Below, piece after piece: positions 36,058 to 64,000 of a stretch of DNA of 64,000 nt. Origin of the DNA: Pedobacter jejuensis (GTDB lineage: Bacteria > Bacteroidota > Bacteroidia > Sphingobacteriales > Sphingobacteriaceae); the NCBI RefSeq assembly GCF_003725795.1, contig NZ_RBEE01000023.1:62001-126000 (forward strand). Direction: 5' to 3'. The notes under the pieces are model-generated. The model was not told the origin of the DNA and searched no databases. It saw only the letters and a list, made by a program, of their open reading frames with translations. Within the stretch, counting starts at the first letter, position 1; every line of letters starts with the position of its first letter. The position numbers and the translations under genes are program-made.

Positions 36058-36822
36058 ATGATGAATTTAGCCGAAAGGCACCAATTAATTTTAAGTCGTT
36101 TACAACGCGATCAATATATCAATGTTGTGGATTTATGTAAGGAACTGAAGGTTTCATCCGTTACCATAAGAAAGGATTTAAAACTACTTGAAGATAAAAG
36201 CTTGCTTTTTAGAACACACGGTGGCGCAACTATGAACAATCCTTATACGGTTGATAGGCCCGTAAATGAAAAGGAAAAGATTCAATCTTCAGAAAAAAAT
36301 AAAATAGGTGCAGCAGCTGCTACATTAATAAATGATAATGATTCTATAGTTATAGCTTCGGGTACTACGGTTTTGTATTTTGCCAAAAATTTACAGCCCG
36401 CAACCAACTTAACCGTTGTAACATCGGCATTAAATGTAGCGCTGGAACTTATGAGAGAACCAAGCATAGAAGTTATTCAATTGGGTGGGATTTTAAGGAA
36501 AAGTTCTTCATCAGTTTTGGGGAGTTATGCAGAGCAAATTTTAGGCGATTTTTATTTTAACAAATTGTTTTTAGGTGTTGATGGAATTGATTTAGATTTC
36601 GGTTTAACCACAACAAACGCTATGGAAGCCCAGTTGAATAGGAAAATGATTAGCGTTTCACAAAAAACGATTGTCCTTGCAGATTCATCTAAATTTGGTA
36701 AAAGAGGTTTTGGAAAGATATGTGGTTTAGATGAAATCGATCACATTATAACAGACAAAGGAATTTCTGAACAAATTGTAAAACATTTAGAAAGTTTAGG
36801 TGTTACTGTAACTATCGTATAG
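36058..36822 (+). CDS. DeoR-family transcriptional regulator (probable glycerol regulon repressor)
   Basis: 254 residues. N-terminal winged helix-turn-helix with the DeoR signature (VVDLCKELKVSSVTIRKDLKLLEDKSLLFRTHGGA, about 21-57), then the effector domain (SGTTVLYFAKNL, VTSALNVALELM, QLGGILRKSSSSVLG, LADSSKFGKRGFGKI). The closest known role by neighbourhood is GlpR, which senses glycerol-3-phosphate; it is divergent from glpD-glpK-glpF, with the operator candidate between them. The start at 36058 and the next ATG (36061) are adjacent. Confidence 0.85.
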   Translation: MMNLAERHQLILSRLQRDQYINVVDLCKELKVSSVTIRKDLKLLEDKSLLFRTHGGATMNNPYTVDRPVNEKEKIQSSEKNKIGAAAATLINDNDSIVIASGTTVLYFAKNLQPATNLTVVTSALNVALELMREPSIEVIQLGGILRKSSSSVLGSYAEQILGDFYFNKLFLGVDGIDLDFGLTTTNAMEAQLNRKMISVSQKTIVLADSSKFGKRGFGKICGLDEIDHIITDKGISEQIVKHLESLGVTVTIV

Positions 36823-36863: not shown

Positions 36864-37256
36864 ATGTCAAAAAAGAGAATACACATTTTAGAAGATGATC
36901 AGGAAATCAGAAACGTGATTGAGATTCTTTTAAAAGAAGAAGGGTTTGAACTACAGCTATCATCATCTTTTTCTGAATTAAAGAAAAATATTAAAGATGC
37001 AATGCCAGATTTATTTCTGCTGGATGTGATGTTGCCCGATGGAAATGGTGCAGAAATTTGCGAAGATTTAAAAACAGATATTTTTACCAAGCACATTCCT
37101 ATTATCGTAATGTCTGCCCAAAACAATAGCGAGCAAAAAGCTATTGATGCTTTTGCAGATGATTATATCAGCAAGCCATTTGATATTTACGATGTTTTAG
37201 AAAGAATAAATGCTCAGATAAAAAAGAGCCATGAAGGTAAGCCAGCTCAGGCATAA
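36864..37256 (+). CDS. single-domain response regulator
   Basis: 130 residues, a lone receiver domain: acidic pair D11/D12, phospho-acceptor Asp54 (LFLLDVMLPDG), Thr/Ser at S84 (VMSA) and Lys104 (SKPFD). No output domain, so it works through protein contacts or as a phosphorelay step. 41 bases after the DeoR-type gene on the same strand; ends at a terminator. The partner kinase is not visible nearby; the orphan kinase at 6215 is a candidate only in a loose sense. Confidence 0.9.
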   Translation: MSKKRIHILEDDQEIRNVIEILLKEEGFELQLSSSFSELKKNIKDAMPDLFLLDVMLPDGNGAEICEDLKTDIFTKHIPIIVMSAQNNSEQKAIDAFADDYISKPFDIYDVLERINAQIKKSHEGKPAQA

Positions 37257-40860: not shown

Positions 40861-40907
40861 AGCAGGTGACTACAGGATAGCCAGTGAGATTCGTTTCTGT
40901 ATATTTG
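40861..40907 (+). promoter_or_regulatory. operator-like motif plus -7 box, promoter of the RG-I block
   Basis: AGCAGGTGACTACAGG (40861-40876) has CAGG repeated one helical turn apart and lies 23 bases upstream of a perfect -7 box, TATATTTG (40900-40907). The same arrangement recurs at 46264-46310. There is no TTTG -33 element at the proper place, consistent with activator-dependent transcription. Inference from repetition. Confidence 0.6.
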
Positions 40908-40957
40908 ATTGAGCTCATATTTAAGCTTTAACTAATCAATTATACCCAATTCCGGCT

Positions 40958-41170
40958 ATGAAAAAACGTATTGTATTCCAATTATTTCATTTATTGATTT
41001 CCGGATTTATACTTTCCTTCACTAGCAAAATCTATTCTGTTAAGATAGTGCAAATCGATTTAGCGAACCCTTTTGTAATGCCTCCTTTTAAAGTTCCTGA
41101 TTTCTCGGGTAACAGACGGTTTTCAATAGTTGATTTTGGTGCCGTTCCTAGATTTTCCACACAAAAATAA
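40958..41170 (+). pseudogene. remnant of a secreted GH28 (polygalacturonase-like) gene
   Basis: 70 codons: a signal-like N-terminus (MKKRIVFQLFHLLISGFILS) followed by PFKVPDFSGNRRFSIVDFGAV, the typical first strand of GH28 parallel-beta-helix enzymes (F-x-I-x-D-F-G-A). In intact enzymes several hundred residues follow; here the frame runs into RFSTQK and a stop, 65 bases before the next gene. So only the first part is left. The promoter with the repeated motif sits directly upstream. Confidence 0.7.
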
Positions 41171-41235
41171 TTATCTAAACTTCACAAGCCTCAATTTTTA
41201 AGTTCTATCTGTCACTTATTCCAATAGCAAACTAA

Positions 41236-42564
41236 ATGAATTTCAAACGTATACTTTTAATCGGTCACACCTTATTACCTCTTTTTACAAGCGTAGCTGC
41301 GCAACAAAAAACTGATTATAAATTTGACTTTGGCCCCGGGAAAGTGGCTAAAAACTACATTCAGATTCTGCCTAAAACCAGTTTTTCGCGAAACGATACA
41401 TATGGTTTTGATTTTGACTCAAAAGTGGAAGGATTTGACCGTGGTGGAAAAAACCTACTAACTGCTGATTTAGTAAGGAGTGATAAACCTTTCTATTTTT
41501 CAGTTGCGGTACCAGAAGGAAATTATAGGGTTTCTGTTACTTTGGGTGATTCCAGACAATCGGTTCATACAACTATCAAGGCAGAGTCGCGCCGTTTAGT
41601 GCTTGAAGATGTAAGAACCAAACCTGGTGTATTTACAACCAAAACCTTCATGGTAAACGTAAAAAACAGAAATATCAGTACTGGAAGTATTGTTAGTTTA
41701 AAACCCCGAGAATTAAATAAGCTGGATTGGGACGATAAACTAACATTGGAGTTTGATCATCAAACAGCTCTTGCTGCGATTGAAATTACCAAAGTAGAAG
41801 ATCAGATTACAATTTTCCTGGCAGGGAACTCCACGGTCGTTAATCAGGAAGACGAACCATGGGCATCCTGGGGGCAAATGATTCCTCGTTTTTTTAAGCC
41901 GGGTGTAGCTATTGCCAATCATGCAGAATCTGGCTTAACCCTTGGCTCTTCCATAGCTAGCCGAAGGCTTGAAAAAGTATTGAGTATTGCAAAACCTGGT
42001 GACTACCTTTTTATCGAATTTGGCCACAATGATCAAAAGGATAAAGGGGCGGGCGATGGTGCTTACAAATCCTACACAGACCGTTTAAAAACCTTTATCA
42101 GCGAGTTTAGAAAAAAAGGCGGCATTCCTGTTATTGTAACTTCAACAAGCAGAAGGTCGTTTGATGCAAACGGCAAAACCCAAAACACCTTGGGTGATTT
42201 TCCTGATGCTGCCAGAAAAGTCGCAGCTGCTGAAAACGTACCATTAATTGATTTGAATGTAATGACAGCTCAGCTTTATGATGCGCTAGGCGAAGAAAAT
42301 TCCAAAAAGGCATTTGTTCACTATCCCGCCAATAGCTATCCTGGTCAGGATAAAGCGCTTGCAGATAATACGCATTTTAATCCTTATGGTGCTTATGAAA
42401 TTGCCAAATGTGTTGTTATGGGGATAGAAGCCCAAAAGTTGGGGATTTCGAAATTTATAGTGGATGATTTTCCGGCCTTTAATCCTTCGAAACCTGATGA
42501 TCCAATGATGTGGAAATGGCCTGAAAGTCCGAGAAATAGTATCGTTAAACCCGATGGAAATTAA
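41236..42564 (+). CDS. rhamnogalacturonan acetylesterase-like, CE12-type, with N-terminal sandwich domain
   Basis: 442 residues, signal peptide to VAAQ. Residues about 20-185 form a beta-sandwich (FDFGPGKVAKNYIQI; YRVSVTLGDSRQSVHT) of the galactose-binding-like type; the SGNH esterase follows (about 190-435). Block I reads AGNSTVV, with Asn where classical GDS(L) has Asp, block III IEFGHND and the catalytic pair DNTHFN. It would remove acetyl groups from galacturonic acid of rhamnogalacturonan-I. First intact gene of the plus-strand block, 44 bases before PL11. Confidence 0.88.
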   Translation: MNFKRILLIGHTLLPLFTSVAAQQKTDYKFDFGPGKVAKNYIQILPKTSFSRNDTYGFDFDSKVEGFDRGGKNLLTADLVRSDKPFYFSVAVPEGNYRVSVTLGDSRQSVHTTIKAESRRLVLEDVRTKPGVFTTKTFMVNVKNRNISTGSIVSLKPRELNKLDWDDKLTLEFDHQTALAAIEITKVEDQITIFLAGNSTVVNQEDEPWASWGQMIPRFFKPGVAIANHAESGLTLGSSIASRRLEKVLSIAKPGDYLFIEFGHNDQKDKGAGDGAYKSYTDRLKTFISEFRKKGGIPVIVTSTSRRSFDANGKTQNTLGDFPDAARKVAAAENVPLIDLNVMTAQLYDALGEENSKKAFVHYPANSYPGQDKALADNTHFNPYGAYEIAKCVVMGIEAQKLGISKFIVDDFPAFNPSKPDDPMMWKWPESPRNSIVKPDGN

Positions 42565-42608
42565 ACGAATTAATAGGGAACAGTTATTTACTCTATAAGA
42601 TATACTAA

Positions 42609-44465
42609 ATGAAGTATAAATCAATTGTTATAAAATGTTGCCTTTTGCTTTCTTTGCTCATACTATCAACAAATTCTTTTGCCCAGCGGCAGATGGAAAA
42701 GTTGGGAAGAGGATTGGTTGCCCTTCGTACAGGGAAGGATTCGGTATTTCTAAGTTGGAGAATTCTGGGTACCGAGCCTGATGACATTTCCTTCAACCTC
42801 TATCGTCAAACCGGTAGCCTACCTGCCAAAAAGCTAAATCAATTTCCGCTAACAACAGGAACTAATTTTACTGATGGTAATGTAAATCCTGAATTAGAAA
42901 ACAAATATTTTATCAAGCCAATAATCAATAAACATCAACAGCTGGCAGAGAAAGCTTTTTTGCTAAAGCCAAAAACGCCGGTTCAGCAATATTTAAACAT
43001 TCCATTGCATACACCAGCCGGCTATGTACCAAATGATGCTTCTATTGGCGACCTCGATGGTGATGGAGAATATGATATTGTATTACATCAAACCGGTCGT
43101 GGTCGCGATAATTCTTCAAATGGAATAACTGATCCGCCTATTTTTCAGGCTTATGAACTAGATGGAACTTTTTTATGGGAGATAAATTTAGGAAAGAATA
43201 TTCGGGAAGGTGCTCATTATACACAGTTTATGGTTTATGATTTAGATGGGGACGGAATCGCAGAGTTTGCCTGTAAAACTGCCGACGGAACGGTGGACGG
43301 GAAGGGCAAAGTAATTGGCGATTCTACAAAAGACTATCGGAATAAGAACGGAAAAATATTATCGGGTCCTGAGTTTTTTACCATCTTTAACGGGAAAACC
43401 GGAGCGGCTTTAGCAACGACGCTTTACCTTCCTGAAAGGGGAAACATTGCAGCTTGGGGCGGCGTTGGAGGTAATGGAAAAAACGATAGTACCGGCAACC
43501 GGGTGGATAGATTTACGGCATGCATTGCTTATCTGGATGGGATTCATCCAAGTTTGGTTATGGGCAGAGGTTATTACGGTAGGACGGTTTTGGCAGCTTG
43601 GGACTGGCGAAATGGAAAACTCACATCCCGATGGGTTTTCGACTCCAGCGATGAGAAAAATGCCTATTCTGGTATGGGTAATCACAACTTATCTGTAGCG
43701 GATGTTGACGGCGATGGTAAGGATGAGATCATTTTTGGATCAATGTGTATCGATGATAATGGCAAAGGTTTATATACCACCGGTTTGAGACACGGAGATG
43801 CGCTGCATGTTTCAGATTTTGATCCCCAGAGGCCAGGTCTGGAAGTTTTTGGAGTCCATGAAATTGAAGAAGGAACAAAAGGTTGTGGAGTTGCCCTTTA
43901 TGATGCTAAAACAGGCGAAATACTCTGGCATGCATCAGAGGATGAGGATGTTGGCCGCGGTGTAGCCGATAATATTGACAACACCCGCATTGGTGCGCAA
44001 ATGTGGTGGTCGGATTCAAATGGTTTGTTTGATAATAAAGGAAACAGGATTGGTTCACAGCCGACGTCAACTAATTTTCTGATTTATTGGGATGAGGATC
44101 TTTCCCGTGAACTTTTAGATGGCAATCACATCGACAAATATAACCACGGAAATCTTCTTACGGCAATCGGCGCAGTAGCAAATAATGGCACCAAATCAAC
44201 TCCGGTGCTAAGTGCTGATATTTTCGGCGATTGGCGGGAAGAGCTTATTCTTCGTTCGCAGGATAATCAAAGTCTTAGAATTTACACCACAACAATTCCA
44301 ACAACGCATAGAACTTATACCTTAATGCACGACCCGCAATACCGTTTAAGCATTGCCTGGCAAAACGTAGGTTATAACCAACCACCGCACACCGGTTTTT
44401 ATTTTGGCTTAGATATGAAGAAAGCGCCAAAGCCGAACATTATTCTCGTTGAACCTCATCATTAG
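42609..44465 (+). CDS. rhamnogalacturonan lyase, PL11
   Basis: 618 residues, signal peptide to SFAQ. Beta-propeller-type PL11: N-terminal FnIII-like segment (EKLGRGLVALRTGKDSVFLSW), then GDLDGDGEYDIVLHQTG, YDLDGDGIAEFACKTADGT and VADVDGDGKDEIIFG calcium-binding DxDxDG loops, with repeated blades. Similar to Bacillus YesW/YesX. Cleaves the rhamnose-galacturonate backbone by beta-elimination, leaving an unsaturated uronic acid for the GH105 enzyme downstream. Followed 12 bases later by a CE12 gene. Confidence 0.93.
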   Translation: MKYKSIVIKCCLLLSLLILSTNSFAQRQMEKLGRGLVALRTGKDSVFLSWRILGTEPDDISFNLYRQTGSLPAKKLNQFPLTTGTNFTDGNVNPELENKYFIKPIINKHQQLAEKAFLLKPKTPVQQYLNIPLHTPAGYVPNDASIGDLDGDGEYDIVLHQTGRGRDNSSNGITDPPIFQAYELDGTFLWEINLGKNIREGAHYTQFMVYDLDGDGIAEFACKTADGTVDGKGKVIGDSTKDYRNKNGKILSGPEFFTIFNGKTGAALATTLYLPERGNIAAWGGVGGNGKNDSTGNRVDRFTACIAYLDGIHPSLVMGRGYYGRTVLAAWDWRNGKLTSRWVFDSSDEKNAYSGMGNHNLSVADVDGDGKDEIIFGSMCIDDNGKGLYTTGLRHGDALHVSDFDPQRPGLEVFGVHEIEEGTKGCGVALYDAKTGEILWHASEDEDVGRGVADNIDNTRIGAQMWWSDSNGLFDNKGNRIGSQPTSTNFLIYWDEDLSRELLDGNHIDKYNHGNLLTAIGAVANNGTKSTPVLSADIFGDWREELILRSQDNQSLRIYTTTIPTTHRTYTLMHDPQYRLSIAWQNVGYNQPPHTGFYFGLDMKKAPKPNIILVEPHH

Positions 44466-44477
44466 ATTATCGTTTCT

Positions 44478-45251
44478 ATGGCAAAATACATATATAAATC
44501 GGGAAGACTCCTTATAGTTGCAATTGCAATTATAGCTTCCGCTTTTGTTCAACAAAAAAAGCCGGTACTGCATATCATTGGTGATTCTACTGTTAGAAAT
44601 GCCAACAAAGAAACCTGGGGCTGGGGAACGCCGATTGCCGCACTTTTCGATACCACCAAAATTTCAGTTGAAAATAATGCAATGGCTGGAAGGAGTACCC
44701 GAACATTTCTTTCTGAAGGAAGATGGGATAGGGTTTTATCATCCTTGAAACCCGGTGATTATGTAGCCATGCAATTTGGCCACAATGAAGGTAGCGAACC
44801 CGATACCACAAAGGCCGGTCGTAGAGGCGTTCTAAAAGGAACGGGTGAAGAAACAAAACAACTAAAATGGCCCGATGGAAAGCCTGAAACCGTTCACACT
44901 TACGGCTGGTATATCAGAAAATTTGTTCGGGAATGCAAAGCTAAAGGTGCTACACCAATTGTAATTTCGATGATTCCTAGAAACGAGTTTAGGAATGGGA
45001 AAGTACTTCGAGCAGATAAAGACTTTGGAAAATGGGCAGCAGAAGTTGCGCAGCAGGAGCATATTTATTTTGTAGATTTAAACAAAATCACAGGGGATAA
45101 ATATGATGAAATGGGACCTGAAAAAGTAAAGACATTTTTCCCCCAAGACCATACACATACCAATCTGGAAGGCGCTAAAGTCAACGCCCAATCCGTTGTA
45201 GAAGGAATTAAGGCATTGAAAGGTTGTAAACTTAAAAAATACCTACTGTGA
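44478..45251 (+). CDS. rhamnogalacturonan acetylesterase, CE12
   Basis: 257 residues with an N-terminal hydrophobic signal. SGNH blocks: IIGDSTVRN (I), AMAGRSTRT (II region), MQFGHNEGS (III) and DHTHTN (V, catalytic Asp-His). Closely related to the gene at 45362 (WGWG, GWYIRKFV, CKAKGATPIVISMIPRN shared). Removes acetyl esters from galacturonic acid. Twelve bases after the PL11 gene. Confidence 0.9.
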   Translation: MAKYIYKSGRLLIVAIAIIASAFVQQKKPVLHIIGDSTVRNANKETWGWGTPIAALFDTTKISVENNAMAGRSTRTFLSEGRWDRVLSSLKPGDYVAMQFGHNEGSEPDTTKAGRRGVLKGTGEETKQLKWPDGKPETVHTYGWYIRKFVRECKAKGATPIVISMIPRNEFRNGKVLRADKDFGKWAAEVAQQEHIYFVDLNKITGDKYDEMGPEKVKTFFPQDHTHTNLEGAKVNAQSVVEGIKALKGCKLKKYLL

Positions 45252-45361
45252 ATATGTAAAGGTTGATTTTTTTCCATAGAAGAAATCATTTTCTAAAAAA
45301 TTCTTATTACAAAGCCATCATCATTTAAAGATTCAGAATAGTTTTATAAAGGACGAAACCA

Positions 45362-46156
45362 ATGAAATCAAATAAAACATACTTATTAATAAGTCTATTT
45401 AGCACATTCATCGTGTTTTCTTCGTGTATTATCTTAAAACAAAAAGAAAAGCCGACCTTGTTTTTAATCGGAGATTCAACCGTAAAAAATGGTAAAGGTA
45501 AAGGCGATGGTAATTTGTGGGGATGGGGAAGTTTTTTAGAAAGCTTTTTTGATAAAGATAAAATTTCGGTAGAAAACGATGCCTTAGGCGGAACCAGCAG
45601 CCGGACCTTTCAAACAAATGGTTTATGGGCAGCCGTATTGGCTAAAGTAAAAAAAGGCGATTTTGTAATGATGCAGTTTGGTCATAACGATAGCAGTCCG
45701 CTCGACGATACAGCTCGTGCAAGAGGTACTATCAAAGGAATCGGGATGGAAAGCAAAGAAATATACAATCCGATTAAAAAGAAACAGGAAATTGTTTACA
45801 CTTATGGCTGGTATATGAAGAAATTCATCAGCGATATTAAAGCTAAAGGTGCTATAGCCATTGTTTGTTCATCTATTCCCCGTAACCCGGTAAATAATGA
45901 GAAAATCGTGCTGGTAACCGATAGCTATGCAGAATGGGCTGGCCAAATAGCTAAAGATGAAAAAGTGGATTTTATTCCCCTCAACCAATTAATAAAAGAT
46001 AAATATGCAGCCTCATCTGTAGAACAGGTTAAAAGCTACTTTACAGAAAAAGATCATACCCACACTAATGAAGAGGGCGCTAAACTAAATGCAAGCTTTG
46101 TGGTAGAGGGTTTAAAGGCAGTCAAAACGAACAAATTGAATCGGTATTTGAAGTAA
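45362..46156 (+). CDS. rhamnogalacturonan acetylesterase-like lipoprotein, CE12
   Basis: 264 residues. The signal peptide ends in a lipobox (FSSC, Cys22), so it should be lipid-anchored, unlike its neighbour. SGNH blocks: LIGDSTVKNGKGKG, DALGGTSSRTF, MQFGHNDSS and DHTHTNEEG. Tandem paralogue of the 44478 gene, separated by 110 bases. The pair may act on different acetyl positions or at different locations; that is inference. Confidence 0.9.
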   Translation: MKSNKTYLLISLFSTFIVFSSCIILKQKEKPTLFLIGDSTVKNGKGKGDGNLWGWGSFLESFFDKDKISVENDALGGTSSRTFQTNGLWAAVLAKVKKGDFVMMQFGHNDSSPLDDTARARGTIKGIGMESKEIYNPIKKKQEIVYTYGWYMKKFISDIKAKGAIAIVCSSIPRNPVNNEKIVLVTDSYAEWAGQIAKDEKVDFIPLNQLIKDKYAASSVEQVKSYFTEKDHTHTNEEGAKLNASFVVEGLKAVKTNKLNRYLK

Positions 46157-46263
46157 ATTCCATGGAATTGCTCCTTTGTTTAAATCTTTTTTAACATACA
46201 ATTGAATTCATCTCTAATTAATTTATTGCTAGGGATGGAAAAAACCTGCAGATAATTCAATCC

Positions 46264-46310
46264 AGCAGGACACTACAGGTTGCCCATACTTATTTTTAAT
46301 GCTATAATAG
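46264..46310 (+). promoter_or_regulatory. second copy of the operator-like motif plus -7 box
   Basis: AGCAGGACACTACAGG (46264-46279) matches the copy at 40861 at 14 of 16 bases and is again exactly 23 bases from TATAATAG (46303-46310), which aligns with TATATTTG there. The distance from the -7 end to the chosen ATG (46360) is 50 bases, against 51 at the other site. Confidence 0.6.
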
Positions 46311-46359: not shown

Positions 46360-49266
46360 ATGTACAGTAAAAAGTTTTCTTTGGTCAAGTATATAGCTGC
46401 TGCGATTTGTTTGATTGCTTTGTTTGCAACAAATACGTTCGGCCAAACCATTTCCTTAAAAGGGCAGTGGAGGTTCAAAATCGATGCGAAAGATGAAGGT
46501 GTGCAAGCCAAATGGTATGCTACCAAACTGCCTGAAACTGTAAATTTACCTGGTTCCATGGCTGAGAATTTAAAAGGCGATGAAATAACCCTTAAAACAA
46601 AATGGACAGGAAGTATTTATGACAGTTCTTATTTCTATCACCCACGGCTCGAAAAATATCGTCAGCCCGGAAACCTGAAAATTCCATTCTGGTTAACGCC
46701 TGCGAAACATTATACTGGTGCTGCATGGTATCAAAAAGAGGTTGAAATTCCAGCAGACTGGAAAGGACAACGCGTAGTTTTATCTTTAGAGTACCCGCAT
46801 TCGCAAACACGCGTGTGGATTGATGACATAGAAATTGGAACTCAATACACATTCGTTGTTGCACAAAACTTTGAACTTCCATCTTCTTTAAAGGGCGGAA
46901 AACATACCATCACATTACTAATTGATAACCGGATTAAAGCCATCAATGTTGGTCCGGATTCGCATAGTTTAACTGATCACACACAGGGAAACTGGAACGG
47001 CGTAGTTGGAAAAATATTTTTAAAAGCCGGCTCTCCGGTTTATTTTGATGATGTCCAGGTTTATCCGGATTTAAAGCACAAATCAGCAAAGATTAAAATC
47101 ACTTTAAAGGGACCTGCGAGGGTTTCATCTTCGGGGACAATCACTTTATCTGCAAAGAGTTTCAATACCAAAAACATTGTTGGTGTAAAGCCACTTAGCT
47201 TGGCTTATCAACTTAAAAATGGTATAGCCACAGTAGAAGTTAATTATCCGATGGGTGATAAAATTGTAACCTGGGATGAATTCGATCCGGCATTGTATCG
47301 TTTATCGGCTTCGTTAGTTGCTGATGATGGTAAGAAAGACGAAAAGCAGATTCAATTCGGAATGCGGGAATTCAAAGCTGTTGGCAGGCGTTTTGAAATT
47401 AACGGTCGCCCGGTTTTTTTACGTGGCACCGTCAATAACTGTGAATTTCCGCTAACTGCTTATCCATCAATGGATGTGGCTGCCTGGCAGAGAATATTTA
47501 AAATTTCCAAGGCGCATGGATTAAATCACATGCGTTTTCACTCCTGGTGCCCGCCTGAAGCGGCATTTATCGCGGCAGATTTATCCGGGTTTTATCTGCA
47601 GCCTGAAGGACCAAGTTGGGCCAATCACGGCACATCCATCGGAGAGGGAAAGCCTGTTGACGAATTTATTTATGATGAAACCAATCGCATGGCTAAAAAC
47701 TACGGAAACTATGCCTCTTTTTGCATGATGGCCTACGGTAATGAACCCCGCGGGAAACAGGTAGAGTATTTAACCAAATTTAATAATTACTGGAAGGCCA
47801 AAGATTCCCGAAGGTTGTATACCGGAGCCTCGGTAGGCGGCAGCTGGCCGGTAATTCCAAATAATGAGTTTATGGTTCGCGCAGGAGCCCGGGGTTTAGA
47901 TTGGGCTAAACGACCTGAGAGCATTTCTACTTATGCTAAGCAAATAGAACAATTCTCAGTACCTTTTGTGGCGCACGAAATGGGACAATATTGTGTTTTT
48001 CCGAATTTCGAAGAAATGAAGAAGTATACAGGTGTTTATAAACCCAAAAACTTTGAAATGTTTCAGGAGGATTTAGCCGATCATGATATGGCAGACCAGG
48101 CAAAAAATTTTTTGATGGCCTCAGGTAAATTGCAGGTTTTGTGCTATAAAAATGAAATTGAAAAGGCGTTGAGAACCCCAAATTACAACGGCTATCAGTT
48201 ATTGTCCTTAAATGATTATCCCGGACAAGGAACAGCTTTAGTTGGTGTGTTAGATGCGTTTTGGGATGAAAAAGGTTACATAACAGCGAAAGCTTTCAAG
48301 CGTTTTTCCAACAGTACTGTTCCATTGCTTAGGGTACCTAAATTTGTTTACTCCAATAACGAAAGTCTAGTTGCCGGAGTTGAAGTTGCCCATTTTGGTA
48401 AAGCCCCGTTGGTTAATGCCAACCTGTTATGGACGATAAAAGATGAAAAAGGCCTTGTATTAGCCAAAGGAAGCTTTCTTCAAAAAACGATACCTGTTGC
48501 AAATGGCGTTAATATTGGAGACATTAACTTCAATTTTAGTTCTATTCAGAAAGCAACTAAATTAAATCTGGAGTTAAGTATTCAGGGAACGGAGTTTGCT
48601 AACGACTGGGATTTTTGGGTTTATCCCTCTGTACTGCCAAAACTTAAAACCAATTTTTACTACACCACTGATTTGGATGAACAGGCCAAAAAAGTTTTGG
48701 ATGAAGGAGGCAATGTGTTTCTCAATGCTGCCGGAAAAGTAGTAAAAGGTAAAGAAGTAGTACAAACATTTTTGCCTGTTTTCTGGAATACATCCTGGTT
48801 TAAAATGCGTCCTCCGCATACGCAAGGTATTTTATGCGATCCCAAACATCCCGCCTTTACCAACTTTCCAACGGAAAACCACAGCGATATGCAATGGTGG
48901 GAAATCGTTAACAAAGCACAGGTTATGAATCTTGAGGATTTTCCATCCGGTTTTAAGCCGATCGTACAGCCAATCGATACCTGGTTTTTAAATCGCAAAT
49001 TAGCTCTAGTGTTAGAAGCCAGGGTGGGAAAAGGCAAGCTTATTATTTCGAGTGCTAACCTTTCTCCTGATATACTGGATTCGCCGGCCGCACAACAACT
49101 TTATTTTAGCCTGCAGCAGTACATGATGTCTGAAAAGTTCGATCCAAAATATGAGGTTACTTATAGCACAATAAAGGATATTTTCCAAAGCCCATCTAAA
49201 ATTCAATTTGATACTTTCACAAAAGATAGTCCGGATGAGCTAAAACCAAAGCCAAAAACAAATTAA
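46360..49266 (+). CDS. secreted GH2-like glycoside hydrolase
   Basis: 968 residues, signal peptide from MYSKKFSLVKYIAAA to TFGQ. N-terminal jelly-roll (about 25-220; LKGQWRFKID, RVWIDDIEIG), immunoglobulin-like domain, then a TIM barrel: the acid/base candidate is Glu462 in MAYGNEP and the nucleophile candidate is Glu540 in AHEMGQY. Known GH2 activities include galactosidase and glucuronidase; which one cannot be told. In rhamnogalacturonan loci such enzymes trim side chains. The ATG at 46333 adds nine polar residues; the promoter spacing and signal peptide favour 46360. GH105 follows after 45 bases. Confidence 0.8.
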   Translation: MYSKKFSLVKYIAAAICLIALFATNTFGQTISLKGQWRFKIDAKDEGVQAKWYATKLPETVNLPGSMAENLKGDEITLKTKWTGSIYDSSYFYHPRLEKYRQPGNLKIPFWLTPAKHYTGAAWYQKEVEIPADWKGQRVVLSLEYPHSQTRVWIDDIEIGTQYTFVVAQNFELPSSLKGGKHTITLLIDNRIKAINVGPDSHSLTDHTQGNWNGVVGKIFLKAGSPVYFDDVQVYPDLKHKSAKIKITLKGPARVSSSGTITLSAKSFNTKNIVGVKPLSLAYQLKNGIATVEVNYPMGDKIVTWDEFDPALYRLSASLVADDGKKDEKQIQFGMREFKAVGRRFEINGRPVFLRGTVNNCEFPLTAYPSMDVAAWQRIFKISKAHGLNHMRFHSWCPPEAAFIAADLSGFYLQPEGPSWANHGTSIGEGKPVDEFIYDETNRMAKNYGNYASFCMMAYGNEPRGKQVEYLTKFNNYWKAKDSRRLYTGASVGGSWPVIPNNEFMVRAGARGLDWAKRPESISTYAKQIEQFSVPFVAHEMGQYCVFPNFEEMKKYTGVYKPKNFEMFQEDLADHDMADQAKNFLMASGKLQVLCYKNEIEKALRTPNYNGYQLLSLNDYPGQGTALVGVLDAFWDEKGYITAKAFKRFSNSTVPLLRVPKFVYSNNESLVAGVEVAHFGKAPLVNANLLWTIKDEKGLVLAKGSFLQKTIPVANGVNIGDINFNFSSIQKATKLNLELSIQGTEFANDWDFWVYPSVLPKLKTNFYYTTDLDEQAKKVLDEGGNVFLNAAGKVVKGKEVVQTFLPVFWNTSWFKMRPPHTQGILCDPKHPAFTNFPTENHSDMQWWEIVNKAQVMNLEDFPSGFKPIVQPIDTWFLNRKLALVLEARVGKGKLIISSANLSPDILDSPAAQQLYFSLQQYMMSEKFDPKYEVTYSTIKDIFQSPSKIQFDTFTKDSPDELKPKPKTN

Positions 49267-49311: not shown

Positions 49312-50439
49312 ATGAAGAAAGTAATAATCAGTCTGACCTTATTGGTTGGGCTATCGATCCAACTGCTTTATGGACAAAAAATCCCCGATAAGGCGAAAGT
49401 TTTGCAAAGCTTAAAGTTAACGAATGCTTACTTTATGAATAAGTGGCCTGATGCAGGAAAATCAATTATTACCAACAAAGAAAGGCCAAGTAATCTTTGG
49501 ACCAGAGCGGTTTATTATGAAGGTTTAATGGCATTGTATCAGATTAATCCTGATAAAATATACTACGACTATGCATTACAGTGGGGTGAGAAGCATAATT
49601 GGGGATTAAGAGGTGGCATTAAAACCCGTGATGCCGATAACCAGGCTTGTGGACAAACATACATCGACTTGTACAATATTGATAAACAGCCAGAACGAAT
49701 TAAAGAAATTAAAGCCTCAATTGATTTAATGATAAGTTCTGGTAAAGTTGATGATTGGACATGGATTGATGCTTTACAAATGGCAATGCCTGTTTTTGCC
49801 AAACTCGGAAAGCTGTACAACGACAAAACCTATTACGATTACATGTACAAAATGTATCTTCATAGTAAAAATGTTCAGGGTGGCGGTTTGTATAATGCCA
49901 AAGATGGGCTATGGTGGAGAGATAAAGATTTCGTTCCGCCTTACAAAGAACCAAATGGTGAAGATTGTTACTGGTCAAGAGGCAACGGATGGGTGGTTGC
50001 AGCACTGGTTCGAATATTGGAAATTATGCCTAAAAACGCAGCAGGTTACGATGAATACCTGAAAACCTATCATGAAATGATCAAGACCCTTGTTCCGCTA
50101 CAGCGTATAGATGGTTTTTGGAATGTAAGCCTTCACGATCCAAACCATTTTGGTGGAAAAGAAACTTCCGGTACTGCACTATTTGTTTACGGAATGGCTT
50201 GGGGCGTGAATAAGGGAATGTTGGATAAAAAAACGTATTTGCCAATCATTAATAAAGCCTGGAGCGGAATGTCAAAAGATGCCGTTCAAAAAGATGGCTC
50301 TTTGGGCTTTACTCAGGGAACAGGCAAAGAACCTAAAGATGGTCAGCCGGTAACTTACGCCAGCAGACCTGATTTCGAAGACTATGGTTTAGGCTGCTTT
50401 TTGCTGGCCGGTTCTGAAGTTTATAAATTAAAAAAGTAG
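49312..50439 (+). CDS. unsaturated rhamnogalacturonyl hydrolase, GH105
   Basis: 375 residues, signal peptide to LYGQ. (alpha/alpha)6 barrel related to Bacillus YteR: WTRAVYYEGLMALYQ, WTWIDALQMAMP with Asp153 at the position of catalytic Asp143 of YteR, and CYWSRGNGWVVAALVRILE. Hydrates the double bond of the unsaturated uronic acid left by the PL11 lyase, releasing it. Between the GH2-like gene and rhaM, 46 bases from the latter. Confidence 0.93.
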   Translation: MKKVIISLTLLVGLSIQLLYGQKIPDKAKVLQSLKLTNAYFMNKWPDAGKSIITNKERPSNLWTRAVYYEGLMALYQINPDKIYYDYALQWGEKHNWGLRGGIKTRDADNQACGQTYIDLYNIDKQPERIKEIKASIDLMISSGKVDDWTWIDALQMAMPVFAKLGKLYNDKTYYDYMYKMYLHSKNVQGGGLYNAKDGLWWRDKDFVPPYKEPNGEDCYWSRGNGWVVAALVRILEIMPKNAAGYDEYLKTYHEMIKTLVPLQRIDGFWNVSLHDPNHFGGKETSGTALFVYGMAWGVNKGMLDKKTYLPIINKAWSGMSKDAVQKDGSLGFTQGTGKEPKDGQPVTYASRPDFEDYGLGCFLLAGSEVYKLKK

Positions 50440-50485: not shown

Positions 50486-50794
50486 ATGAAAGTTGCATTT
50501 AAAATGAAAATCAAAGCTGGTTTTAAGGCCGAATATAAAGCCCGTCATGATATGGTTTGGCCGGAATTAGCTACACTTTTGAAAGAAAAAGGCATCAGCG
50601 ATTATTCTATTTTTTTAGATGAGCAGACTGATACGTTATTTGCCGTTCAGAGACAAAATGCTAATTCATCGCAGGATTTAGGCACAGAGGAAATCGTTCA
50701 GAAGTGGTGGGCTTATATGGCTGATATCATGGAAACCAATGAAGATAAATCTCCAAAATCTTTTCCCTTAGAAATGGTATTTCATCTAGACTAG
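50486..50794 (+). CDS. rhaM: L-rhamnose mutarotase
   Basis: 102 residues, cytosolic. Typical RhaM/RhaU pattern: FKMKIKAGFKAEYKARHDMVWPEL at the N-terminus, ISDYSIFLDEQTDTLFAVQ, and WWAYMADIMETN...FPLEMVFHLD at the end. Interconverts alpha and beta L-rhamnose, delivered by the rhamnosidases encoded around it. Five bases before the GH106 gene, so co-transcribed. The rest of rhamnose catabolism (RhaA/B/D) is not in this window. Confidence 0.92.
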   Translation: MKVAFKMKIKAGFKAEYKARHDMVWPELATLLKEKGISDYSIFLDEQTDTLFAVQRQNANSSQDLGTEEIVQKWWAYMADIMETNEDKSPKSFPLEMVFHLD

Positions 50795-50799
50795 TAGCC

Positions 50800-53571
50800 A
50801 TGCAGACTAAAAGATTTTTTTCCTTACTTATTATTGGAATTTCATTCTATAACCTCGCCAGTGCCCAAACACAGTCTAAAAATATAGTGTCGTGGCCAAA
50901 GCAGGAGCAGCAAATGAAACCCTGGACAAGGTGGTGGTGGATGGGTAATGCTGTTAATGAAAAAGATTTGAGTTTCGTTTTACAGAAATATGCAGCTGCA
51001 GGGCTTGGAGGTGTAGAGATTACGCCCATTTATGGTGCTTTAGGTTTCGAAAAAGAGTACCTTCAATTTCTATCTCCTGCCTGGATGAACGCACTTCATT
51101 ATACCGTTAAAAAAGCCAATTCGCTTGGTTTGGGCGTTGATATGAATACAGGAACCGGATGGCCATTTGGCGGTCCGCAGGTAAAGCCAGAATATGCTGC
51201 AGGTAAATTGATTATTCAGGACTATAAATTAAACGCAGGAGAGAAATTATCAGAAAGCATTAAAGTAAAGGAAACTAAGCAGGAGTTTGCAAAGTTACAG
51301 GCACTCACAGCTTATGGTCCCAATGGTGAAACTCAGGATTTGCTTTCTTCCCTTAACACGGATGGTCAGTTAAGCTGGTCACCAAAATCGGGTACCTGGG
51401 AAATTTATGCAGCTTTTTCCGGCAAAACCAGACAAATGGTTAAACGTGCCGCTCCCGGTGGAGAAGGATTCACGCTTGACCACCTAGATAAACCTTCGGT
51501 TGATGTTTATTTAAAAAGATTTACAGATTCATTCGAAAACAAGCCACAAGGCATAAGGTCTTTTTTTAATGATAGTTATGAAGTTTATGGCGCTACCTGG
51601 ACACCTGTTTTTTTTGCCGAATTTAAAAAGAATAGGGGTTACGATTTGTCGAAGCATTTAAAAGATTTGGCCGGCAAAGATTCTACTAGCGAAACCATTG
51701 CCCGTTTGAAATCAGATTACCGTCAAACCATGGATGAATTGCTTTTGGAAAATTTTACCAAGAACTGGACTAACTGGGCACATGGTTTAAAATCATTAAC
51801 AAAGAATCAATCTCATGGTTCGCCGGGTAATCTGCTAGATCTCTACGGTGCAGTAGACATTCCGGAAACAGAAACTTTTGGCTCCAGTTCATTTGATATT
51901 CCGGGAATCAGAAGAGCACCTGCTGATGTTAGAAATGTTGATCCTGACCCGATGATGAGCAAATTCGCCTCTTCAGCTGCCCATACAGGTGGTAAAACAT
52001 TAGTGTCATCAGAAACTTTTACCTGGCTTACCGAACATTTTAAAACTTCATTTTCGCAATGTAAACCTGAAGCAGAACAGTTATTTTTATCTGGTGTAAA
52101 TCACATTTTTTATCATGGTACCACAAATTCTCCTGAAAATGTGCCTTGGCCGGGCTGGCTATTTTACGCCTCAGTTGAGATAAATCCCAATAACAGTTTA
52201 TGGCCGCATGCTAAAGGCCTTAATGATTATCTTGCCCGGTGCCAATCGATTTTACAAACAGGAAAACCCGATAATGAATTATTGATATACTGGCCTATTT
52301 ATGATGTGTGGAATAAGGCGAAAGGACTTGATATGGCTTTAACTGTGCATGGTGTTGATAAATGGTTGCATCCAAGCGCATTTTATAAATTGGCTGTTGA
52401 GCTAAAAAAAACAGGTTATTCATTTGACTTTGCTTCTGATAGATTGCTGGCCAAAACTGAAGCTGAAAATGGAGTCATCCTGACCGCCAAAAATGCTTCG
52501 CCTTATAAGGTATTGATTGTTCCATCTTGTGATTTGATGAGTAATGAAACTTTAGAAAACATTTTGCGGTTGGCTAATGCCGGCGCAACGGTAATATTCC
52601 AATCACTGCCTAAAGATGTTCCGGGACTGAATGAACTGGAATCGAGGCGAGCAAAATTTAAAAATACCCTTTCTTCTTTTACCTTCTCAAAAGTTGAAAA
52701 AGGTTCAATGACTTACAAAATCGGTAAGGGCAAAATTATTTTAGCAAATGATGTGAAGTCTGCACTCGCTCAAAACACTATCGATAGAGAGGCCTTGATA
52801 GATTCTGGATTACAATTCATCAGAAGAAAAAGCGGCGAAACGACGTATTATTATCTTGTAAATCATACTGCAAAAGATGTTGACACCGAAATACCGTTAA
52901 ATACGATGGGAAGTGCGGTAATTTTAGATCCTCAAAACGGACATACAGGCTTAGCATCTAAGCTGGGAAACAAAGTAAGGGTTCAAATAAAATCTGGTGA
53001 AAGTTTGTTTTTAAATGTTTCAAAAACACCGGTTCAAAATTCCCCATGGGAATATCTAAATAAAAAGAGTAATCCGCTTGTTCTGAATAATCCCTGGACT
53101 TTGCATTTTACCGCTGGTGGTCCGGAGCTTCCGGCTGATCAAAAACTAAAAAAGCTAATTTCCTGGACAGAACTAGCCGATCCAAAATTAGCTGCTTTTT
53201 CAGGAACCGGCATTTACGAATCTCATTTTTATCTGGCGGCTAAAACTGCCAAGGAATATGTTTTGAATCTCAATAAGGTGGATGAAAGCGCCAGAGTTTG
53301 GATAAATGGTCAGCTTGTCGGGATTTTATGGAGCGTTCCATTTGAAGCCAGAATTGGTAAATATTTAAAGCCCGGAAATAATACCATCAGAGTTGAAGTG
53401 GTAAACCTGATGGCCAATCGCATCCGGGATATGGACAGGAAAAAAATCCAATGGAGAAAATATCATGAAATTAATTTTGTAAATATTAATTATAAGAATT
53501 TTGATGCATCTGATTGGTCATTGATGCCTTCAGGCTTAATCGGACCGGTATCCATTACACCATATTTTTAG
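50800..53571 (+). CDS. secreted alpha-L-rhamnosidase, GH106-like
   Basis: 923 residues, signal peptide to ASAQ. GH106 features: KPWTRWWWMGNAVNEKDLSF, AAAGLGGVEITPIYGALG, GLGVDMNTGTGWPFGGP near the N-terminus of a TIM barrel, WTPVFFAEFKKNRGYDL, SHGSPGNLLDLYGAVDIPETE and a C-terminal beta-sandwich (YVLNLNKVDESARVWINGQ). Releases rhamnose from rhamnogalacturonan-type or arabinogalactan glycans, complementary to GH78. Last gene of the plus block; converges with GH115 68 bases on. Confidence 0.9.
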   Translation: MQTKRFFSLLIIGISFYNLASAQTQSKNIVSWPKQEQQMKPWTRWWWMGNAVNEKDLSFVLQKYAAAGLGGVEITPIYGALGFEKEYLQFLSPAWMNALHYTVKKANSLGLGVDMNTGTGWPFGGPQVKPEYAAGKLIIQDYKLNAGEKLSESIKVKETKQEFAKLQALTAYGPNGETQDLLSSLNTDGQLSWSPKSGTWEIYAAFSGKTRQMVKRAAPGGEGFTLDHLDKPSVDVYLKRFTDSFENKPQGIRSFFNDSYEVYGATWTPVFFAEFKKNRGYDLSKHLKDLAGKDSTSETIARLKSDYRQTMDELLLENFTKNWTNWAHGLKSLTKNQSHGSPGNLLDLYGAVDIPETETFGSSSFDIPGIRRAPADVRNVDPDPMMSKFASSAAHTGGKTLVSSETFTWLTEHFKTSFSQCKPEAEQLFLSGVNHIFYHGTTNSPENVPWPGWLFYASVEINPNNSLWPHAKGLNDYLARCQSILQTGKPDNELLIYWPIYDVWNKAKGLDMALTVHGVDKWLHPSAFYKLAVELKKTGYSFDFASDRLLAKTEAENGVILTAKNASPYKVLIVPSCDLMSNETLENILRLANAGATVIFQSLPKDVPGLNELESRRAKFKNTLSSFTFSKVEKGSMTYKIGKGKIILANDVKSALAQNTIDREALIDSGLQFIRRKSGETTYYYLVNHTAKDVDTEIPLNTMGSAVILDPQNGHTGLASKLGNKVRVQIKSGESLFLNVSKTPVQNSPWEYLNKKSNPLVLNNPWTLHFTAGGPELPADQKLKKLISWTELADPKLAAFSGTGIYESHFYLAAKTAKEYVLNLNKVDESARVWINGQLVGILWSVPFEARIGKYLKPGNNTIRVEVVNLMANRIRDMDRKKIQWRKYHEINFVNINYKNFDASDWSLMPSGLIGPVSITPYF

Positions 53572-63965: not shown

Positions 63966-64000
63966 ATGAAATTTAAAATACTTCTTTTCTTTATAATAGC
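63966..64000 (+). CDS. start of an exported or membrane protein, truncated by window edge
   Basis: ATG at 63966 opens MKFKILLFFII, a typical signal-peptide start, and runs off the window after 11 codons. Divergent from susC, the place where PULs often encode their hybrid two-component or other regulator, but identity cannot be read from this fragment. Confidence 0.45.
   Translation, partial: MKFKILLFFII

Follow-up and report, generated by a model that had tools for sequence, protein, structure and literature searches.

Regulators of the GntR family as a rule bind palindromes, and AraR of Bacillus subtilis, an arabinose regulator whose full-length layout joins a GntR DNA-binding part to a LacI-like sugar sensor, has a palindromic operator. 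The operators of DeoR-type RhaR proteins of Rhizobiales, Thermotogales, and Chloroflexales, which serve a rhamnose regulon, are described as imperfect direct repeats with a 10–11 bp period, and that of the AraC-type RhaR of Bacteroides is described as a direct repeat with a 21-bp period (PMC3870299). The operators of HTCS_Rgu-1 and HTCS_Rgu-2, which precede rhamnogalacturonan loci of Bacteroides, are described as direct repeats of 12–14 bp boxes with a period of ~21 bp (PMC3878776).

We analyzed a window of 64,000 nt from Pedobacter jejuensis in which two promoters share a control site. This site, found at one fixed promoter distance in many Bacteroidota, appears to couple the breakdown of rhamnose-rich pectin to rhamnose utilization. 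It resembles the DeoR-type RhaR operators in its rhamnose regulon and its imperfect direct repeat of 10-bp period, the likeness being one of repeat period. In contrast to those systems, the linked regulator is of GntR type, and no DeoR gene is regularly present. Like the HTCS_Rgu operators, the site is a direct repeat before rhamnogalacturonan loci of Bacteroidota, but its period is 10 bp, a second box 21 bp away is absent, and no hybrid regulator is conserved with it. The candidate reader is a rhamnose regulator of Bacteroidota, as is the AraC-type RhaR of Bacteroides, although it belongs to another family. It has the two-part layout of AraR (PDB 4egy and relatives), whereas the repeat runs head to tail.

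In the window, AGCAGGTGACTACAGG (40861-40876) and AGCAGGACACTACAGG (46264-46279) are identical at 14 of 16 positions, and each is separated by exactly 23 nt from a -7 box. The start codons at 40958 and 46360 lie 51 and 50 nt, respectively, past the last base of the box. CAGG recurs after 10 bp at both sites, making each a direct repeat with a period of one helical turn. All of these points had been made in an earlier sequence-only reading of this DNA and agree with it letter for letter. Simple duplication, which that reading had also discounted, was rejected as the origin of the pair because the flanks are unrelated, both in the window and among dereplicated relatives. The -7 boxes follow TAnnTTTG, the consensus given for primary sigma promoters of Bacteroidota (PMC9723704). 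TTTG at -33 is missing; this position, 20 nt upstream of the -7 box, is occupied by TTG or ATG. Its absence had been noted and is correct to the letter, with the qualification that site 2 has a TTG directly 3' of ACAGG and 20 nt upstream of the box. Relatives carry WTG at the place of this TTG (dereplicated copies; WTG was included in the search pattern).

Promoter 1 would drive a GDSL-PL11-GDSL-GDSL unit behind a GH28 remnant, and promoter 2 would drive a GH2-GH105-rhaM-GH106 unit (Table 1). The putative remnant has no Pfam match. By BLAST, it shares 47% identity over 51 aa with L313_7909 of genome G047, in a stretch resembling the N-terminus of GH28 frames; the GH28 label of L313_7909 is itself a BLAST match at 29%. 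As a correction to the sequence-only reading, the first frame behind site 1 is not an intact gene.

Table 1. Sites, -7 boxes, and genes at the two promoters, in window coordinates
Feature	Position	Strand	Remarks
Site 1	40863..40882	+	Tandem half-sites CAGGTGACTA (40863-40872) and CAGGATAGCC (40873-40882)
-7 box, promoter 1	40900..40907	+	TATATTTG; full fit to TAnnTTTG
70-codon frame, first behind promoter 1	40958..41170	+	Probable GH28 gene remnant
GDSL esterase with galactose-binding-like domain	41236..42564	+	Pfam
PL11 rhamnogalacturonan lyase	42609..44465	+	Pfam
GDSL esterase	44478..45251	+	Pfam
GDSL esterase	45362..46156	+	Pfam
Site 2	46266..46285	+	Tandem half-sites CAGGACACTA (46266-46275) and CAGGTTGCCC (46276-46285); TTG 46280-46282
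-7 box, promoter 2	46303..46310	+	TATAATAG; fits TAnnTTTG at 4/6
GH2-like enzyme	46360..49266	+	
Unsaturated rhamnogalacturonyl hydrolase, GH88/GH105-type	49312..50439	+	Pfam Glyco_hydro_88; GH105 is our reading
L-rhamnose mutarotase (rhaM)	50486..50794	+	Pfam
GH106 alpha-L-rhamnosidase	50800..53571	+	Pfam
Hybrid two-component regulator	begins 63966		

A 14/16 match between two 200-bp upstream regions was reached in 82 of 2,000 Markov shuffles, and the 36 upstream regions of the window gave 17 region pairs at this level, whereas 30 shuffles averaged 26.5. Therefore, the pair of sites alone is not significant. When the window was scanned with a consensus drawn mainly from other genomes, sites 1 and 2 were the only places with two or fewer mismatches, and none of five shuffled windows had any. 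The P. jejuensis assembly (45 contigs) contains exactly two exact copies of AGCAGGNNACTACAGG, which are sites 1 and 2. Two imperfect copies in this assembly were rejected: the one-mismatch copy on contig C3 gave no promoter-type site with the refined pattern in a 20-kb stretch, and the two-mismatch copy (C23:129096) lies inside the hybrid regulator gene without a -7 box at the expected place.

The rhamnogalacturonan-type site recurs widely. GCAGGAYANTACAGGWTG followed by 20 nt and TA was found, with at most one mismatch, at 147 places (summed) in 64 of 145 genomes of the genus, a count for which site 1 itself is too divergent; the reversed pattern gave 0 in all 145. Scanned for exact matches, 84,980 species yielded 92 stretches compared with ~7 expected anywhere by our estimate, and all 80 of the stretches listed are from Bacteroidota by name. 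Three of these 80 (L230, L235, and L270) look like chance matches, with a poor -7 box and no matching genes by label; L270, from Phocaeicola, is the sole Bacteroidales stretch among them. The site is present in all 30 promoters examined of the GH2-like gene behind site 2, that of P. jejuensis included (exact in 20, with one mismatch in 8, two in 1, and three in 1). Genes behind site copies encode PL11, GH2, GH28, GH43, GH78, GH95, and GH105 enzymes, SusC/D, rha products, and KduI-UxaC; beyond the Pfam-labeled proteins, these labels come from BLAST comparison with a reference set built from those proteins, some of the matches having only 24–35% identity. Many copies are orthologous promoters and so are not independent; after dereplication on the identity of their flanks, sets of 80, 165, and 198 sites came down to 55, 88, and 111, respectively. 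The proposed genome scan thus found the motif before GH28, GH2, GH105, GH78, PL11, and rhamnose genes with its spacing kept, and the suggestion of a co-regulation site for rhamnogalacturonan genes gains support from these targets and from the conserved spacing in relatives.

The distance to the -7 box was also evident where it had not been imposed. At a gap of 23 nt, a box matching at least 4 of 6 positions is present in 40 of the 42 exact copies. A box of at least 5/6 occurs at this gap in 20 exact copies compared with at most 4 at any other gap; in 6 of the 42, another gap outscores 23. The two T's of the box, whose positions were likewise left free, are present in 47 and 66 of 70 dereplicated rhamnogalacturonan-type sites and in 18 and 18 of 18 rhaT-type sites.

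The site consists of two 10-bp half-sites, head to tail, of the general form CAKRAYRSTN, and its rhamnogalacturonan variant reads CAGGAYANTA CAGGWTGC. The TA of a TAnnTTTG-type -7 box follows at 37 nt from the first C of the site. The promoter of the L-rhamnose operon has a like architecture (CATAACAGT twice) at the same 37-nt distance. A head-to-tail repeat lies 37 nt before TA at 35 of 36 rhaT starts examined, three of the repeats (L155, L415, and L428) being recognized by eye and the exception being Adhaeribacter (L248). Among rhaT-type repeats from loci picked by gene position, TA follows at 37 nt in 40 of 40, with no spacing imposed; the repeats of L415 and L428 were recovered again in this set. 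The rhaT form was found at 122 places (summed) in 97 of 145 genomes compared with 7 control matches. Relative to the general consensus, the rhaT site of P. jejuensis has 0 mismatches, site 2 has 1, and site 1 has 2 (3 of 18 positions relative to the genus 18-mer). Two positions set the half-site types apart, reading TA or TG in one type and GG in the other. Of the 111 dereplicated sites, 12 are hybrids, and six of these hybrids lie between rhaR and rhaT (L155, L183, L185, and L189-L191); at L192 and L193, both half-sites between rhaR and rhaT are of CAGG type. Such an operator therefore stands in the rha operon promoter, beside the gene for a GntR-type regulator. The shared architecture, the 37-nt distance, and the hybrids together indicate, at the level of sequence, that the site is a variant of a rhamnose/rhamnogalacturonan operator.

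This regulator, RhaR, has a sugar-binding-protein-like domain and is the recurrent neighbor of the sites. In a PDB search, its GntR part resembled AraR (4egy, E = 2.8e-5), and its sensor part was weakly LacI-like. We propose, with moderate confidence, that the sites are operators of an L-rhamnose/rhamnogalacturonan regulon read by RhaR as an activator. Encoded beside the rha genes, RhaR is the likeliest reader and would bind from about -49 to -30, the span of the site, in which the second half-site would replace the -33 element. Its periplasmic-binding-protein-like part would sense rhamnose or a rhamnose product; in tandem on one helix face, RhaR would lie against RNA polymerase and turn on the rhamnose pathway together with the enzymes releasing rhamnose from pectin. 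The spacing suggests activation rather than repression.

RhaR is present in all 64 site-bearing genomes of the genus, and the site occurs in 0 of 18 genus genomes without RhaR compared with 64 of 127 with RhaR (Fisher 1.4e-5; size-stratified 0.0027). RhaR is also found in 63 of 81 site-free genus genomes, and because it is common, co-occurrence is a weak test of its role; the loss of RhaR may have gone along with that of rhamnose and pectin use. Outside the genus, a survey of 38 site-bearing genomes, without site-free controls, found a RhaR relative in 36, the exceptions being two metagenome bins; best-hit identity falls to 31%, and orthology is therefore not assured there. Genes of the rha set or GH78 genes adjoin RhaR at 27 of 30 best-match loci and in 35 of another 40 stretches chosen by us from the list, and rha, rhaM, GH78, or GH106 genes adjoin the RhaR relative at 13 of 20 loci outside the genus. 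In F. rivuli, a GntR gene and the DUF4861-KduI-UxaC genes that it faces are separated by a site copy, and F. zepuense has the same layout, judged by frame size. By inspection, the consensus is not the palindrome typical of GntR regulators and AraR, its half-sites running head to tail, and no palindrome was seen by eye beside rhaR in 31 upstream stretches. It may not be possible for one protein to read both half-site types. The rhaR gene of P. jejuensis (C14:39346-40368), which has a paralogue at C23:131440-132444, also precedes araB- and araD-like genes and so could encode an arabinose regulator.

RhaR might read the site as a repressor, blocking the -33 region until released by rhamnose, which would change only the sign of control. 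We regard this as quite possible, though less likely than activation: the AraR and LacI relatives from the PDB search are named repressors, and site 2 keeps TTG at the -33 place, but ATG replaces it in many copies. Moreover, a blocker tolerates many distances, whereas contact with RNA polymerase requires a constant distance such as that seen here with no spacing imposed (40/40 rhaT-type and ~40/42 pectin-type sites). Chance resemblance between the two promoters is extremely improbable; the 14/16 match by itself would allow it, but the conservation of the site and the control scans speak against it, and for site 2 they already refute it.

Other proteins could read an unchanged operator. An AraC-type monomer on a marbox inserts its pair of helix-turn-helix motifs into successive grooves, and a position overlapping -33, as here, is typical of AraC-type activators. 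An unlinked activator of this type, free-standing or hybrid two-component, could thus occupy the 20 bp as a single monomer site with the regulon unchanged, but we consider this unlikely. A rhamnose activator of AraC type is described in Bacteroides (PMC3870299), a Flavobacterium AraC gene adjoins one site copy, the P. jejuensis hybrid regulator lies ~18 kb from site 2, and another hybrid regulator stands behind a site-GH28-DUF4450 unit in G047. However, the occurrence of CATAACAGT twice is a true half-site repetition, unexpected if a single AraC monomer read the site with two differing helices. The Flavobacterium protein, rejected as reader, has a best match of 34% in the genus, with as many as 17 candidates scored in each genome. 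The P. jejuensis hybrid regulator was rejected as a genus-wide reader; with the four best candidates scored per genome, relatives of at least 47% identity occur in only two other genomes of 145 (G128 and G125), and it is found in 2 of 64 site-bearing genomes, its own counted. A second box at the ~21-bp period of HTCS operators is likewise missing, the upstream side showing only two weak A/T columns in 55 dereplicated copies, and nothing is conserved within the 80 bp upstream examined that would match SusR-type boxes 67 or 77 bp apart. The AraC- or response-regulator-type reader of the sequence-only reading was not upheld on these grounds. Boxes of PhoB type lie at -35, and an OmpR/PhoB-type protein, or one of DeoR type, might bind 10–11 bp direct repeats such as this one. 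The RhaR motifs of other phyla have this form (PMC3870299), but the DeoR gene of the window (36058-36822) adjoins glycerol-type genes, on which ground it was rejected, and has a relative in only 3 of 40 stretches around RhaR genes. We consider a reader of either type distinctly improbable.

The sequences establish the architecture of the site, its fixed spacing and conservation, and the presence of a like-spaced site at the rhamnose operon promoter. None of six representative site sequences was found in print in the literature searched, and in the rhamnose-regulon paper (PMC3870299), the main text mentions neither Pedobacter nor Flavobacterium, nor any regulator of GntR type. A broader and more tentative view, which we hold to be rather doubtful, is that a GntR-type class II activator with a sugar-binding-protein-like sensor acts on head-to-tail 10-bp half-sites, rather than on a palindrome, at an invariant position and links intracellular rhamnose sensing to outer-membrane and periplasmic rhamnogalacturonan digestion across Sphingobacteriales, Chitinophagales, Cytophagales, and Flavobacteriales, in parallel to local hybrid two-component sensors or in their place. 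Non-gut Bacteroidota are important degraders of plant and algal polysaccharides, and their regulons are little charted in the literature found. The analysis provides a searchable site, a fixed promoter geometry, a list of targets, and one candidate regulator, and therefore makes it directly testable whether a monosaccharide controls pectin digestion.

The sequence-only reading had placed two matching 16-mers ahead of two pectin transcription units, each 23 nt from a -7 box; checked on the sequence, the placement of both 16-mers, the gaps and the boxes was borne out. The resemblance between site 1 and site 2 is not strong evidence by itself, because a 14/16 match between two 200 bp regions was reached in 82/2000 Markov shuffles, and across the 36 upstream regions of the window 17 pairs of regions match this well, against an average of 26.5 over 30 shuffles. 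The sequence AGCAGGNNACTACAGG has two copies in the organism's own assembly, exactly sites 1 and 2, and these are the only places in the window within two mismatches of the general consensus. The 70-codon frame behind promoter 1 probably represents the beginning of a GH28 gene that has since been lost. Coordinates are collected in the table.

Coordinates of the sites and neighboring features (G000, own assembly; C, contig; L, fetched locus)
Feature	Location	Strand	Remark
Site 1	window 40863-40882
Site 2	window 46266-46285
70-codon frame	window 40958-41170		first frame behind promoter 1
Site copy in the genus genome G047	L313, 9385	minus	in front of a 454-residue frame, similar in kind to the 70-codon frame
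Own rhaT promoter site	G000:C14:39255-39293	minus	0 mismatches to the general consensus
Own rha operon and araB-/araD-like genes	L301 (G000:C14:30000-49999)		back to back
Free-standing receiver-domain protein	window 36864-37256		between a glycerol-type regulator and a GH78 gene
Hybrid two-component regulator	window 63966-64000, on to G000:C23:129664		begins in the last bases of the window

Counting our own, we surveyed 145 genomes of the genus. A search for the exact 16-mer, two of its bases left free, gave 47 places in 34 of them (reversed control, 1 match). A refined site derived from relatives, GCAGGAYANTACAGGWTG, scanned with a TA required 20 nt downstream and no more than one mismatch allowed, was detected at 147 places in 64 genomes, with reversed controls at 0 throughout. 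Site 2 fits this refined consensus fully; site 1 is a poor member (3 mismatches in 18) and is not counted among the 147. For the GH2-like gene that follows site 2, 75/145 genomes have a match at E <= 1e-50, paralogues included, and all 30 promoters taken from the best 30 of these (own included) carry the site, with no mismatch in 20, one in 8, two in 1 and three in 1, and in every case a TA 23 nt behind it. Two exact copies occur in each of 12 relatives, one of them 3.7-10.5 kb upstream of the other; where the region was fetched, this upstream copy precedes the PL11 and GDSL unit, often with another gene first. Therefore, both window promoters have counterparts.

The predicted recurrence in relatives before GH28, GH105, PL11 and rhamnose genes was found, with the spacing kept. 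Among 42 distinct exact copies, many orthologous to one another, and with spacing not imposed, a -7-like box (at least 4/6) lies at gap 23 in 40, and gap 23 is the best gap in 36; the two copies without a box sit inside open frames of ~600 codons. Outside the site, the site-1, site-2, SusC (G093) and GH43 (G028) promoters appear unrelated. Scanning 84,980 species for exact matches returned 92 stretches; the 80 listed, which we take from organism names to be all Bacteroidota, include Pedobacter, Sphingobacterium, Mucilaginibacter, Chitinophaga, Arachidicoccus, Flavobacterium, Cellulophaga, Gramella, Pontibacter, Adhaeribacter and others. In 55 dereplicated copies, upstream conservation was absent apart from two weak A/T columns; -7 positions not imposed in the search were nevertheless conserved, also in a larger set.

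A head-to-tail repeat, typically CATAACAGTN twice, stands at 35 of 36 rhaT starts examined (3 recognized by eye), the sole miss being in Adhaeribacter (L248). Counted from the first C of the repeat, the TA of the -7 box is 37 nt downstream, precisely the distance seen at the pectin sites. The initial count favored a TA at this distance; in a recount without the distance, with loci chosen by gene position only, TA was found at 37 nt in 40/40 distinct repeats (TAnnTT in 38) and at any other distance in at most 7. In the genus, the rhaT form occurs at 122 places in 97/145 genomes (reversed control, 7 matches), and it is not confined to rhaT: it also lies ahead of SusC/D units and of GH78 genes, with GH106-like frames (25-26% identity) behind some of them. 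The 111 dereplicated sites comprise 70 with two GG (CAGG) halves, 27 with two TA/TG halves, 12 hybrids with one of each and two sites with GA; six of the hybrids fall between rhaR and rhaT, and in two further genomes (L192, L193) the rhaR-rhaT site has both halves of the CAGG type. We take the shared repeat and 37-nt distance, the hybrids, the CAGG pairs at rhaT and the consensus fit as good evidence that the pectin sites represent a variant of the rhamnose operator.

Downstream of the -7 box, AACCAA/G/T occurs within 80 nt at 49/81 sites (L207-L286 promoters), compared with 10% of random stretches, and within 20 nt at 35/81, compared with 3%. AACCAAATAT recurs in rhaT leaders. Both are perhaps initially transcribed or translation elements.

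The candidate reader is RhaR, a protein ~343-356 residues long that recurs beside the sites and combines a GntR DNA-binding part with a part resembling periplasmic binding proteins; its PDB relatives are AraR and, weakly for the sensor part, LacI. RhaR was found in 127/145 genus genomes. The site is present in 64 of these and in 0/18 without RhaR (Fisher 1.4e-5; genome-size-stratified 0.0027). This co-occurrence may reflect rhamnose use only, and RhaR is also present in 63/81 site-free genus genomes. In the genus search, rha or GH78 genes adjoin RhaR at 27 of the 30 best loci and in 35/40 further stretches picked from the hits of that search; outside the genus, its neighbors include rha, rhaM, GH78 or GH106 at 13/20 loci. 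Among site-bearing genomes outside the genus, the only ones covered, 36/38 have a relative (best-hit identity, 31-70%); the remaining two are metagenome bins, and in one of these the site itself is doubtful. Five neighbors of our own rha genes were scanned and included no further regulator. Palindromes are the usual target of GntR proteins, which counts against RhaR as the reader, as does the position of our own RhaR, which also faces araB- and araD-like genes: the GntR-type regulator gene heads the ara side there, as in a few relatives.

The regulator that begins where the window ends is a two-component hybrid with Reg_prop, Y_Y_Y, HisKA, HATPase, receiver and AraC-type HTH domains. Beyond it come GH28, an ECF-type sigma factor, SusC/D and, next to GH28, a second regulator of the GntR type (45% to RhaR). 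In one Flavobacterium locus (L223, by Pfam), a site copy lies behind an AraC-type regulator gene; L268 and L285 share this arrangement, judged by frame size and a near-identical site, and in L268 the copy also precedes a rhamnosidase-like gene. Here the regulon may have been taken over independently.

Taking the -7 box as -12 to -5 (PMC9723704), the site extends from ~ -49 to -30. Its half-sites are equal and one turn apart, which would place two protein units on the same helix face, and the unchanging distance to the box argues for contact with RNA polymerase and hence activation. That the protein is instead a repressor covering the -33 region is less probable, though a real possibility. The ~21 bp period of hybrid two-component operators and the 67 or 77 bp period of SusR operators (PMC3878776) were both absent at these sites in the 80 bp examined upstream. 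DeoR-type rhamnose operators of other phyla have a 10-11 bp period (PMC3870299); in contrast, no DeoR gene regularly accompanies our sites. A GntR-type rhamnose regulator was not found in the main text of that paper, the site sequence was not found printed in the literature searched, and search listings returned no description of the regulon.

Site copies precede PL11, GH2, GH28, GH43, GH78, GH95, GH105, WbsX and SusC/SusD genes. In Flavobacterium rivuli a copy precedes DUF4861-KduI-UxaC, a layout shared by F. zepuense as judged by frame size, and in three genus genomes (G054, G025, G086) one precedes GH78-rhaR-rhaT-rhaEW-rhaI-rhaB. The target set is pectin and, above all, rhamnose.
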